From Actinomycetota bacterium (GTDB lineage: Bacteria > Actinomycetota > Actinomycetes > S36-B12): a stretch of 32,981 nucleotides of DNA. The translations under genes and the position numbers were made by a program. Positions 1-4,617 of this stretch are shown here, piece by piece; the stretch's first letter is position 1; every line of letters starts with the position of its first letter. The stretch is from NCBI GenBank assembly GCA_947449035.1, contig CANFQC010000027.1, positions 1 to 32,981 of the forward strand. The letters are read 5' to 3'. The notes beneath the pieces are model-generated. The model was not told the origin of the DNA. It saw nothing but the letters and a program-made list of their open reading frames with translations, and ran no database searches.

Positions 1-1381
1 GAGTAGCAAGTCGGCGCCAGCCCGTGGCCAGAAGGCCCATCACGCCGCCTGGGGCGATCAGGACCACCACCACCAGGAGGAGCCCGTATACGAAGGTGGG
101 GAGGTTATTGGTGACCTGGTCACTCCAGCCCCGATCCCCCGCCAGGTTCGAGACCGCCGCCGGCAATCCCACGAGCAGCACGGCACCAATAACGGCACCG
201 ACGAGGGAGCCGCGGCCGCCGAGAACCACGCCGACCAGCAGCGAAAGCGAGAGCGCGACCCCGTAGGCGCCTGGGCCGACGTAGGTCAGGATCTGAGCGA
301 AGACTGCACCGGCCAGGGCGGCAAACAGACTGCTCACGACAAAGGCAGAGACCTTTGATGCAGCCGGCGAGATACCCGAGAGCGCAGCCGCGATCGGATC
401 ATCACGTACTGCCTTCCACACCCGCCCTTGTCGGCCGCGCACCAGGTTGAGTGCCACGAAGCCGGCGATGCACGCCACGGCAATCGACACGGACGCCTGC
501 CACTGCTCAAGCACGAAGCCGACATCGGTGATCGTTCCGGTGGGTGTCGACGAGATCGCCGACGCGGAAGGCACGGGGACGGGATCCGCGGATGCACTCG
601 ACCCAGCGCCGGGGACATCGGACGGCGTGAGCATGTCGTCGGGCGAGGTCGATCCGGTGACGTCCGAAGGCGTGAGCATGTCGTCAGGCGAGGTCGACCC
701 GGTGACATCGGACGGCGTGAGCATGTCGTCAGGCGAGGTCGACCCGGTGACATCAGACGGCGTGAGCATGTCCGACGATGACGACGCAGCATCGGACGGT
801 GCAGCACTCGCACCAGCGAGTGCCTGATCGAGAGCTGCCGTGTCGCTCGCAACCGCGGCGTCCGCGGCTGCGGCGCTTTCAGCGATGTAGCCACCCTCGG
901 GATACGGAACTGTGAGCATCAAGCCCTGGCTGCCACCGAGGACGCCGGGGAATCGAGCAGCAATCGACGGAAGCCCGACCGCGATACCGAGGGTCAGGCC
1001 GGCCAGATACGGACCTCGCAATCGCGCAGCGAGCAGACCGATGATCAGACCTGCGATCACTCCCCCGAGCCCAGCGAAGATGACCGACCACACTGCATTC
1101 CATTGCATGCCGAGGATCGGAACTGTCTGCCAGTTCAAGCTCGTCACTGCAAAGACGTAACCACCTACGGCCATCAGGGCGCCATTGCCCAGCGATACCT
1201 GGCCCGACAGGCCTACCAGAATCACCATGCCGAACATCGCAGTCGCATACATCGCCGCGAGAGCGAGGTAGTAACTCATGAGCGGTTCGACCATCACGTT
1301 CAGGCGCGAGAGCACCAGCCAGATCGCAATGAAGAGCGGGGCGTGAATGAGAAGACGCGAGTTTCGCAGCCAAGTGGGCAT
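1..1381 (-). CDS. livM: Branched-chain amino acid ABC transporter permease LivM, C-terminus cut by window edge
   Basis: Inner-membrane permease of a LivFGHM-type importer; with LivH it would form the channel for branched-chain amino acids or a related substrate. The frame read from the ATG at 1379-1381 stays open to base 1, giving 460 codons, so the last residues lie outside the window. The N-terminal half shows several hydrophobic segments and the family motif SGQVSLGNGALMAVGGY near residues 59-75. The C-terminal half carries the EAA-like loop VRDDPIAAALSGI and then further membrane segments. Residues about 166-280 are an insertion absent from ordinary LivM proteins (about 320-360 aa): Ala/Ser/Asp/Thr/Pro-rich, acidic, with tandem 15-residue repeats. 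By topology it should lie in an external loop. The start is 2 nt after the livH stop, so the two are co-transcribed. Family assignment is firm; substrate is inferred. Confidence 0.88.
   Translation of the reverse strand, partial: MPTWLRNSRLLIHAPLFIAIWLVLSRLNVMVEPLMSYYLALAAMYATAMFGMVILVGLSGQVSLGNGALMAVGGYVFAVTSLNWQTVPILGMQWNAVWSVIFAGLGGVIAGLIIGLLAARLRGPYLAGLTLGIAVGLPSIAARFPGVLGGSQGLMLTVPYPEGGYIAESAAAADAAVASDTAALDQALAGASAAPSDAASSSSDMLTPSDVTGSTSPDDMLTPSDVTGSTSPDDMLTPSDVTGSTSPDDMLTPSDVPGAGSSASADPVPVPSASAISSTPTGTITDVGFVLEQWQASVSIAVACIAGFVALNLVRGRQGRVWKAVRDDPIAAALSGISPAASKVSAFVVSSLFAALAGAVFAQILTYVGPGAYGVALSLSLLVGVVLGGRGSLVGAVIGAVLLVGLPAAVSNLAGDRGWSDQVTNNLPTFVYGLLLVVVVLIAPGGVMGLLATGWRRLAT
615..772 (-). 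repeat. In-frame 45-bp tandem repeats inside livM (about 3.5 copies)
   Basis: Units at 615-659, 660-704 and 705-749 plus a partial copy at 750-772 are near identical, differing by a few mostly silent changes. Each encodes the 15-residue unit MLTPSDVTGSTSPDD or a slight variant (residues about 204-256 of LivM). Because the period is a multiple of three, gain or loss of units keeps the frame. Confidence 0.9.
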
Positions 1382-1383
1382 CA

Positions 1384-2262
1384 CTACACCGCCCTCGACT
1401 TACCGCGACCGAATGCGCCACCGGGGCGCACGACCAAGGTGATCGCCAGCAAAATGAGCACGACGATCGGCGCATCACCGGCCTCGCCGTATCCGGTGAC
1501 CAGGGCGAGCACCAAACCTGTGCCCACACCAAAGGCCACCGCACCAATGAGACTGTCGAGACCGCCGACGACCGCGGCCGTGAAGGCGAAGATGAGAAGG
1601 ATGTCGAAGCTATTGGGCGACAGGCTCGCAGTTGGCGCGATGAGAACGCCCGCGACAGCGCCCACGACGCCGGCGAGAGCCCAGCCGAAGGCCAGCATGC
1701 GATTGACGCGAATGCCGGAGAGCTTGGCAACTTCTGGGTTGAAGGCCGAGGCTCTCATCGACAGGCCGAGTGAGGTGCGCGTGAAGAGAAGCGTGAGAGC
1801 GACGACAAGCACTGCCGTGACGGCGTAGACGAGTACGTCGTACCAGGAGATGGGCCAGATGCGTCCGCCGATCTCGAGGCCGTTATTCGCCACCGGCGGC
1901 GCAAACGACTTCGGGTCGCCGCCCCAGATCATCGAGGCAAGCGCCTGCAGCGAGATGAGCACTCCGAAGGTCGCGATAATCGAACCCGAAGTGTCGAGCC
2001 GCTGCACGGGCCGCAGCACCAGCGCGTACACAATCAGTCCGAGAATTGCTCCGGCGACAAGACCGGCGAGCAGCGCGAGAATCCACGAACCCGTAGCGAC
2101 CTGAACCGCCAGGGCGATGAAGGTCGTGAACATGGCCTGACCAACCTGCGCGAAGTTCACGATTCGTGTCGAACGCCAGACGAGCACAAGCGCCAGAGCG
2201 AACAGCGCAATGACAGCGCCGCTGGAGAATCCACCTAGGAGGTAGTCGATGAATGTGGTCAT
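1384..2262 (-). CDS. livH: Branched-chain amino acid ABC transporter permease LivH
   Basis: Second membrane permease of the Liv-type importer, 292 aa, the normal length for LivH. The N-terminus is characteristic: DYLLGGFSSGAVIALFALAL, followed by an FAQVGQAMFTTF segment that matches the NFAHG-type motif of this family. About eight hydrophobic segments follow, with the cytoplasmic loop LSMRASAFNPEVAKLSGI expected to contact the ATPases. It starts at ATG 2260-2262, 8 nt after the livF stop, and ends 2 nt before the livM start, so it sits in the middle of a tight operon G-F-H-M. No periplasmic binding protein gene is visible; it may lie beyond the left edge. Family is certain; the transported solute cannot be read from sequence. 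Confidence 0.92.
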   Translation of the reverse strand: MTTFIDYLLGGFSSGAVIALFALALVLVWRSTRIVNFAQVGQAMFTTFIALAVQVATGSWILALLAGLVAGAILGLIVYALVLRPVQRLDTSGSIIATFGVLISLQALASMIWGGDPKSFAPPVANNGLEIGGRIWPISWYDVLVYAVTAVLVVALTLLFTRTSLGLSMRASAFNPEVAKLSGIRVNRMLAFGWALAGVVGAVAGVLIAPTASLSPNSFDILLIFAFTAAVVGGLDSLIGAVAFGVGTGLVLALVTGYGEAGDAPIVVLILLAITLVVRPGGAFGRGKSRAV

Positions 2263-2270
2263 GTCAGCGC

Positions 2271-2975
2271 CTACGAGCCCAGGTACGCATCGCGTAGTTC
2301 GTCATCGGCAGCGATCTCTTCCGCAGTACCGACCCTGACAACATTCCCGAGATTCATGATGATGCCCGTGGTTGCGACACGAAGTGCCGTCACCGCATTT
2401 TGTTCAACCAGCAGCACAGCCAGGTTCTTCTCCCGCGCGAGCTGACTCACTAGTTGCAGGATTTGAGTAACGATCAATGGCGCGAGTCCGAGCGAGGGCT
2501 CATCAAGCAGGAGGCAGGTCGGATCGCACATCAACGCGCGACCGATGGCGAGTTGTTGCCGCTCACCGCCAGACAAAGTGTCAGAGCGCATCCGCCGACG
2601 CTCCGCGAGAACAGGGAACATCTCGTAGATCTCTGCGGAGGTGGCCTTGCGTTCCGCACTCGGTCGCCAGAGCCCTCCGAGATGCAGGTTCTCCTCGACG
2701 GTGAGCTCGGGGATCGTCGAACGACCCTCGGGAACGAGCGCCATGCCGGAACGGACGATGTCCTCGGGGGAACGACCGGTCACGACAACGCCATCGAGTT
2801 CTGCCGTGCCAGAGACGGGCTTCACGAGCCCGGCCAAGGTGCGCATGAGCGTGGACTTGCCGGCTCCGTTCGCACCGATAACCGCAGTCACCTCGCCACG
2901 TGGCACGACAAGGCTGACCGAATCGAGTGCGCGCACCGCACCGAAGCTGACACTGAGCTGCTTGACCTCGAGCAT
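2271..2975 (-). CDS. livF: Branched-chain amino acid ABC transporter ATP-binding protein LivF
   Basis: Cytoplasmic ATPase of the Liv-type importer, 234 aa as usual for LivF. Visible motifs are Walker A GANGAGKST at residues 34-42, signature LSGGE at 134-138, Walker B CLLLDE at 154-159 and the switch LLVEQN (Q in place of H is normal for LivF). The start ATG (2973-2975) overlaps the livG stop by one base (TGATG), implying translational coupling, and equal amounts of the two ATPases are expected for a G:F heterodimer. Orientation and spacing put it in the same transcript as livG, livH and livM. Confidence 0.93.
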   Translation of the reverse strand: MLEVKQLSVSFGAVRALDSVSLVVPRGEVTAVIGANGAGKSTLMRTLAGLVKPVSGTAELDGVVVTGRSPEDIVRSGMALVPEGRSTIPELTVEENLHLGGLWRPSAERKATSAEIYEMFPVLAERRRMRSDTLSGGERQQLAIGRALMCDPTCLLLDEPSLGLAPLIVTQILQLVSQLAREKNLAVLLVEQNAVTALRVATTGIIMNLGNVVRVGTAEEIAADDELRDAYLGS

Positions 2976-3757
2976 CAGCTGGCCTCCTCGTGACCGAGGT
3001 AGGCCTCGAGGACCGCGGGGTTATTGCGGATTTCCTCGGGCGTACCGGAGGCGATCACCTTGCCGGCGTCGAGAACCCAAATGAGGTCGCACACGTTCAT
3101 CACGAGATCCATGTGATGCTCGACTAGAAGAACGGTGCGTTGCGGTGTCCAGCTGCGAATGAGCGCACCGAGTTCGGCGATGTCGCCGACACTCACGCCA
3201 CCGGCCGGCTCATCGAGCATGACAATGGATGGGTCACTGACCAATGCACGGGCGAGAGCGACGCGCTTTTGCACGGGATACGGAAGCTCGGACGGAAAAC
3301 GGTCACGCGCGTCTGCGACACCGAGCTCAGCCATCACGGCGAGGGATCGCTCACGAAGCCGCGCAATGCGCACATCAGCCCAGGGCATCGCCAGGCCGTC
3401 GGCGATGATGCCCGTGCGTATCGACGATGAGCCACCGAGCATGACGTTGTCGAGTGCCGACAAGGTCGCGAAGAGACCGACTCCCTGGAGACTGCGCGCT
3501 ACGCCGAGCTTGGTGAGTCGTTGTGGCTTGATGCGCCGCTGCTGCACGCCATTAAAGGCGACAGTGCCGGAGTCTGCGGACAAGAAGCCGGAGAGCACAT
3601 TGAAGACGGTGGTCTTACCGGCGCCATTGGGACCGATCAGCCCGGTGACAGCCCCCTTCGGGACATCGATACTGACGGAGTCGAGGATCTGCAGGCCGGA
3701 CAGACGAATGGAGACATCGCGCAGTGAGATCGCCGAGTCGACCGGCACCCCGTTCAT
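2975..3757 (-). CDS. livG: Branched-chain amino acid ABC transporter ATP-binding protein LivG
   Basis: Partner ATPase of LivF, first gene of the liv operon. From the chosen start it has 260 aa, close to the 255 typical of LivG. Walker A GPNGAGKTT is at residues 42-50 and Walker B is IVMLDEPAGG. The signature region reads LPYPVQKR, where many LivG proteins have an LPYG-type motif and classic ABC proteins LSGGQ. The LVEHH switch histidine is present. The frame is open as far as 3856, but that longer version would run through the promoter candidate and the rplA terminator hairpin. The ATG at 3755-3757 has a GGAG SD about 5 nt upstream and gives the normal N-terminus. An ATG at 3773-3775 is a less likely alternative. 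Confidence 0.9.
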   Translation of the reverse strand: MNGVPVDSAISLRDVSIRLSGLQILDSVSIDVPKGAVTGLIGPNGAGKTTVFNVLSGFLSADSGTVAFNGVQQRRIKPQRLTKLGVARSLQGVGLFATLSALDNVMLGGSSSIRTGIIADGLAMPWADVRIARLRERSLAVMAELGVADARDRFPSELPYPVQKRVALARALVSDPSIVMLDEPAGGVSVGDIAELGALIRSWTPQRTVLLVEHHMDLVMNVCDLIWVLDAGKVIASGTPEEIRNNPAVLEAYLGHEEAS

Positions 3758-3808
3758 GCGACTCCGTCCGAACATCAAGAACTCACGCCGACAATCGGCA
3801 GCCCTGCC

Positions 3809-3903: not shown

Positions 3904-4617
3904 CTAGATGTCGTCGTCCACAGTGAGGTTCTTGACGCGGTTGGAGTCAACCTGCACGCCCGGACCCATGGTCGAGGAGAAGGTTGCCTTCTTGATGTAA
4001 CGACCCTTGGCCGCGGACGGCTTCAGGCGCAGGACCTCGTCGAGGGCTGCTGCGTAGTTCTCGACGAGCTGGGTCTCGGAGAACGAGGCCTTGCCAATCG
4101 GGAACTGCAGGTTGGAGTGCTTGTCGACGCGGAATTCGATCTTGCCGCCCTTGATGTCATCGACTGCCTTCGCGACATCCATGGTGACGGTGCCAGTCTT
4201 GGGGTTCGGCATGAGGCCACGGGGACCAAGCACCTTGCCCAGGGTTCCGACCTTGCCCATCAGATCGGGCGTGCAGACGGCGGCGTCGAAATCAGTCCAG
4301 CCTCCGCGCACCTTCTCGATGAGCTCATCAGAACCGACGAAGTCGGCTCCTGCCGCGCGTGCTTCGTCAGCCTTCTCGCCGTTGGCGAAGACCAGGACCC
4401 GGGCGGTCTTGCCGGTGCCGTGCGGAAGGTTGACGGTGCCACGCACCATCTGGTCTGCCTTGCGGGGGTCAACGCCCAAACGCATGGAGACCTCGACGGT
4501 CGGATCGAACTTGCTTGCTACACCAGCCTTGACGAGACGAACGGCCGAGAGCGGTGAGTACAGCTCGTCAGCGTTGAACATCTCAGCGGCGGCGCGGTAT
4601 GCCTTGCTGCGCTTCAT
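3904..4617 (-). CDS. rplA: 50S ribosomal protein L1
   Basis: Large-subunit protein of the L1 stalk, which binds 23S rRNA and helps eject deacylated tRNA. It is usually also the repressor of its own rplK-rplA mRNA. Length 237 aa matches the family (about 230-240). The L1 signature is visible around [20 protein letters not shown], as is the N-terminal [13 protein letters not shown]. Start ATG 4615-4617 is preceded by a good SD (AAGGAG, 6 nt spacing). It follows rplK after 75 nt; that gap holds a short hairpin (arms 4647-4651 and 4657-4661) and a GTTTCC/GGAAAC inverted repeat straddling the rplK stop. rplJ-rplL do not follow directly; the hairpin at 3852-3890 ends the unit. Confidence 0.97.

Follow-up and report, generated by a model that had tools for sequence, protein, structure and literature searches.

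The permease gene livM, at the start of the 32,981-nucleotide actinobacterial contig analysed here (the window), raises the question of why a transporter subunit should carry a long, acidic, repeat-bearing insertion between two of its membrane segments, and what such an insertion might do. The gene belongs to a liv-type importer operon, in which the genes for two permeases and two ATPases accompany one for a Peripla_BP_6 binding protein (Table 1). The window contains 461 codons of livM; the overlapping contig C30 of the same assembly supplies the final RR and the stop codon, with livK and rplJ after them and rpoB at a greater distance (rplA, rplJ and rpoB are named here from a reading of the open reading frames). 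LivM passes the gathering score of PF02653 (101.8 versus 26.8 bits) in two stretches, with the insertion between them, but does not reach the NCBIfam cut-offs for LivM (NF008450; 91.1 versus 366 bits) or UrtC (TIGR03408; 74.8 versus 296.2 bits). It shares with LIV-I type LivM proteins (PF02653) the fold family, the livGFHMK operon, the position of the next membrane helix and the cytoplasmic GR motif, and differs from them in its 119-residue acidic repeat insertion. The two other liv operons of this genome encode a short-loop LivM and a lipidated, acidic LivK.

Table 1. Features of the liv operon and of the LivM insertion (window coordinates unless a locus is given)
Feature	Location	Strand	Remarks
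livM	2..1384	minus	PF02653 (BPD_transp_2) permease; last two codons and stop on contig C30
LivM insertion, predicted external, residues ~167-285	530..886	minus	acidic, no Lys/Arg
Repeat unit 4, residues 250-264	593..637	minus	DMLTPSDVPGAGSSA; end diverged; nearest to last unit of L001
Repeat unit 3, residues 235-249	638..682	minus	DMLTPSDVTGSTSPD
Repeat unit 2, residues 220-234	683..727	minus	DMLTPSDVTGSTSPD
Repeat unit 1, residues 205-219	728..772	minus	DMLTPSDVTGSTSPD
livH	1384..2262	minus	second permease (PF02653)
livF	2271..2975	minus	ATPase
livG	2975..3772	minus	ATPase
rplA	3904..4617	minus	marks the setting rplA-[livGFHMK]-rplJ
livK	L078:268-1539		binding protein, contig C30; no lipobox, basic
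rplJ	L078 ORF 1615-2508		contig C30

The initial annotation had placed a repeat-bearing insertion at 535–885, and it was indeed found there, with slightly wider limits and a length of about 119 residues. Tandem Repeats Finder reported a single tandem array in the whole window (609–772; period 45, 3.6 copies), with 91% matches and no indels, lying in frame within LivM. The full units 1–3 differ from one another at 1–5 of 45 bases, and from the full units of the five-unit array of the nearest relative at 7–10, which agrees with the earlier view that the repeats are recent or homogenised. The window's last, partial unit is nearest, at 6 differences, to the one that ends the relative's array. This end unit is common to both arrays, which have four and five units, respectively; copy number thus differs between species.

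In an AlphaFold model of LivM built with 47 sequences (mean pLDDT 82), the membrane part mostly exceeds 90, and confident helices are present on both sides of the loop, at residues 125–144 and 292–316. The loop itself (about 165–286) is predicted with low confidence (pLDDT mostly about 43–55), consistent with disorder, with a possible, weakly predicted helix at 171–191; such values do not indicate a folded domain of the MalF P2 kind. The helix leading into the loop is preceded by a basic segment, AARLRG, and the one that follows the loop terminates in RGRQGR together with the conserved GR...AVRDD motif; this motif faces the ATPases on the cytoplasmic side. Given the position of this motif and the positive-inside rule, the loop probably lies on the outer face of LivM, as had been proposed; in this topology check, the model and the charge of the flanking segments both favoured that orientation. 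Sequence searches found no solved relative of LivM, and a fold search gave no significant match (best E 0.91).

The initial annotation had also stated that an ordinary LivM has a short loop at this position, and alignments bear this out: the GGxxGL-to-GR distance is 34–63 residues in 73 LivM proteins of other types (a count that omits fragments truncated at contig ends), versus 167 in the window and 88–216 in loop-type relatives. A scan of genome contigs recovered 44 related loci, and some match was obtained in 50 of the 59 genomes searched, many of these matches being paralogs. Wherever the family label is known, loop-type systems belong to family f1; when 166 genomes of the order were searched for LivK, 48 contained it, of which 46 belong to f1 and two to f6. 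The operon is flanked by rplA and rplJ in all 11 f1 loci tested, and neither gene occurs within the available stretch in 22 tested loci of f6, f31 and outgroups, so the loop and this location among ribosomal genes co-occur. The 46 distinct loop segments of same-family relatives have 59–187 residues, a net charge of −6 to −74 and only 0–2 Lys/Arg each. Their Ser+Thr+Pro content ranges from 9% to 46%, while the acidity and the scarcity of Lys/Arg persist; from one species to the next, the loops vary widely in repeat unit, length and copy number. The hosts appear to be uncultured aquatic actinobacteria, the habitat being taken from the titles of sequence records, among which Nanopelagicales, Actinomycetales and an acSTL bin are mentioned. 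An f1-type LivM is also present in L008, L010, L011, L012, L013, L015 and L016, from records titled Bifidobacterium breve, Rubrivirga and Gammaproteobacteria; these titles are probably wrong. A literature search, at the level of search listings, found no account of a LivM insertion of this sort, which is, as far as such searches show, undescribed.

Beneath this variability, a short motif has been retained. In a set of 33 loops made non-redundant at 75% similarity, the pattern [DEG][LM]LT.[DE] was found in 25, with 57 copies in all, as against a mean of 0.4 loops and a maximum of four in 1000 shuffles. As written, it is missing from the other eight; the window has its own form, DMLTPSD, in which D[LM]LT is present and the acid two residues later is absent. 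The shorter core [DEG][LM]LT is found in 26 of the 33 loops, and an ELPTxQ-like motif in 15 (shuffle mean 2.2, maximum 7). The number of motifs varies from one to six across loops. Tandem repeats, scanned only at periods that are multiples of three, are present in 22 of the 33 loops, with units of 5 to 49 residues. In these 22 loops, neighbouring units differ by 42 synonymous and 20 non-synonymous changes, where 24.5% synonymous would be expected (binomial p about 1e-12, with the differences treated as independent, which is not fully true). The retention of the motif across lineages and the mostly synonymous nature of the unit differences indicate that the protein sequence of the loop is under selection. 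Together with the homogenisation of units within species and the shared end unit, this suggests that the array turns over while the protein that it encodes remains constrained.

LivK, the binding protein of the operon, has an ordinary leucine-binding-protein fold (its model matches leucine-binding proteins) and is basic, with a pI of 9.4. It has a plain signal peptide with no lipobox (AVPSHA^ADPG) and is thus not lipid-anchored in the manner of most monoderm binding proteins. In genome G000, to which it belongs, 15 binding-protein genes found with PF13458, PF01547 and PF00496 were examined (L080–L094): the 11 lipidated proteins are all acidic (−10 to −24), and the four without a lipobox, LivK among them, are all basic (+8 to +11). 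The same combination characterizes loop-type systems, as none of the 43 LivK rows (two of them cut copies of other rows) has a lipobox in its signal peptide and all have a mature charge of +4 to +27; the 'LIPO' flags raised by the regular expression on L023 and L153 are due to a Cys that precedes the start. Among lipidated orthologs from farther genomes, 11 of 12 are negatively charged and one has a charge of +2. In the table of relatives, 14 binding-protein rows were dropped because the comparison had no anchor in them; judged by their N-termini, most are lipidated paralogs. The paralogs L117, L136, L146 and L147 were flagged 'nolip' through a misplaced mature start and have N-termini with a lipobox-like Cys, and the Cys in the signal peptide of L201 is ambiguous. 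L142 (G029:C32), which truly lacks a lipobox and yet is acidic, departs from the pattern and may come from a foreign contig.

A tentative reading of these observations, which we would put at rather less than an even chance, is that the loop forms a disordered, multivalent, acidic strap outside LivM that captures the soluble, basic LivK near the permease. A soluble LivK would risk being lost by diffusion where no outer membrane encloses the cell. Long-range charge attraction to the acidic loop could capture it, and a short motif of acidic and hydrophobic residues (core D-[LM]-L-T), present in several copies, could add to this capture, the strap thereby doing part of the job performed by the lipid anchor in most monoderm binding proteins. 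The distribution among families suggests that the loss of the anchor and the basic LivK, common to f1, f6 and f31, came first and the loop, confined to f1, afterwards, in which case the loop would be an improvement rather than a precondition. The broader claim, that an acidic strap with a motif number tuned by repeat expansion evolved after anchor loss as a further way of keeping a binding protein at its importer, is more doubtful.

Three observations keep the proposal of a LivK-binding strap tentative. Firstly, the LivK proteins of loop-less relatives (two f6 genomes and 14 f31 rows) are also anchorless and basic; the loop is therefore unnecessary for a soluble LivK, a one-for-one replacement of the lipid anchor by the loop can be rejected, and the association between loop and LivK rests on one nested origin. 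Secondly, the charges of loop and LivK are correlated across 33 pairs (Spearman −0.53), but the relationship does not hold up convincingly in phylogenetic contrasts (r = −0.27, p = 0.12, permutation p = 0.06), only 13 of 32 having the expected sign; charge co-variation was thus discarded as proof of docking. Thirdly, anchorless exported proteins of G000 are mostly basic: nine of ten non-lipobox candidates encoded in its loci, LivK included, are basic (some are probably false, the export scan being a crude heuristic), and the charge of LivK need not, therefore, be an adaptation to the loop. No strap is known for the other binding proteins here that lack a lipid anchor, namely the orphans encoded on C41 and C3 and ModA, encoded on C17. 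The orphan on C41 (L103:5975-7105) is a basic Peripla_BP_6 protein with no lipobox, and no ABC genes were recognised among the nearby open reading frames.

Known transporters offer partial parallels. The P2 loop of MalF, in the maltose importer of E. coli, is a folded domain; like the LivM loop as predicted here, it is a large external insertion between the membrane helices of a permease, whereas the LivM loop is apparently disordered, repetitive, acidic and located in another permease family. MalF P2 is reported to interact with MalE throughout the cycle, according to the titles of work cited in PMC3328499 and PMC7756565, and a MalE–MalF fusion transporter is among the works cited in PMC7756565. 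This fusion resembles the proposed strap in that the binding protein is kept at the transporter, but LivK is a separate protein and any link to it would be non-covalent.

The loop might, instead, act as a spacer or wall-interaction segment positioning the transporter in the cell wall, or dock a protein other than LivK. Such a role, which seems unlikely, would suit a disordered, probably external segment of 59–187 residues, and no result obtained here names the partner; LivK is, however, the sole exported product found in the operon, and a plain spacer leaves the conserved motif unexplained. The spacer function put forward in the initial annotation is thus compatible with the disorder of the loop and fails to account for its motif. 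It is a little harder still to believe that the loop raises the local concentration of cations, or of a cationic substrate, at the transporter entrance with no contact with LivK. Strong acidity with almost no Lys/Arg in every lineage would be expected of such a device, and the substrate is not fixed by sequence, LivM being far below the LivM and UrtC cut-offs, but charge alone does not require the conserved hydrophobic pair of D[LM]LT. Also improbable, and more so, is a tolerated low-complexity expansion, in which slippage would keep lengthening an exposed loop that tolerates nearly every hydrophilic sequence. Marked variation across species in unit, length and copy number, and arrays that gain or lose whole units, are what slippage would produce; the motif kept in most loops and the excess of synonymous unit differences, strong even though these are incompletely independent, argue against indifference to sequence.

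The mucin-like, O-glycosylated segment also suggested initially would fit the window's own loop, with 41% Ser+Thr+Pro, but this role is highly improbable and was rejected on loop composition, as the proportion falls to 9% in relatives that retain the acidity. An assembly artefact can be dismissed as the source of the insertion because in-frame loops are present in many independent assemblies, including one on a 1.42-Mb contig (L029), although seven of the 44 loci stop at a contig end within the loop (L034–L038, L042 and L043) and L040:4935-6379 changes frame inside an EEDLLT array, through either a true frameshift or a sequencing error. Contigs ending there suggest that such repeats interrupt or collapse assemblies made from short reads; some arrays may be collapsed, and exact copy numbers remain uncertain.

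The insertion is, thus, real, conserved and selected, and docking is a plausible mechanism. Of the three functions initially put forward, docking of LivK is plausibly the best on sequence evidence: charge complementarity, the anchorless LivK, the motif and selection on the repeats speak for it, and the f6 and f31 systems that have no loop, the phylogenetic contrasts and the basic exported proteins against it. The rule seen in this genome, that a lipid anchor goes with an acidic binding protein and its absence with a basic one (all 15 examined), can be tested widely. If the strap does bind LivK, the natural series of loops, with one to six motifs, would allow motif number to be related to transport, and it would be seen how a monoderm bacterium can rely on a binding protein that is secreted freely and yet not lost.
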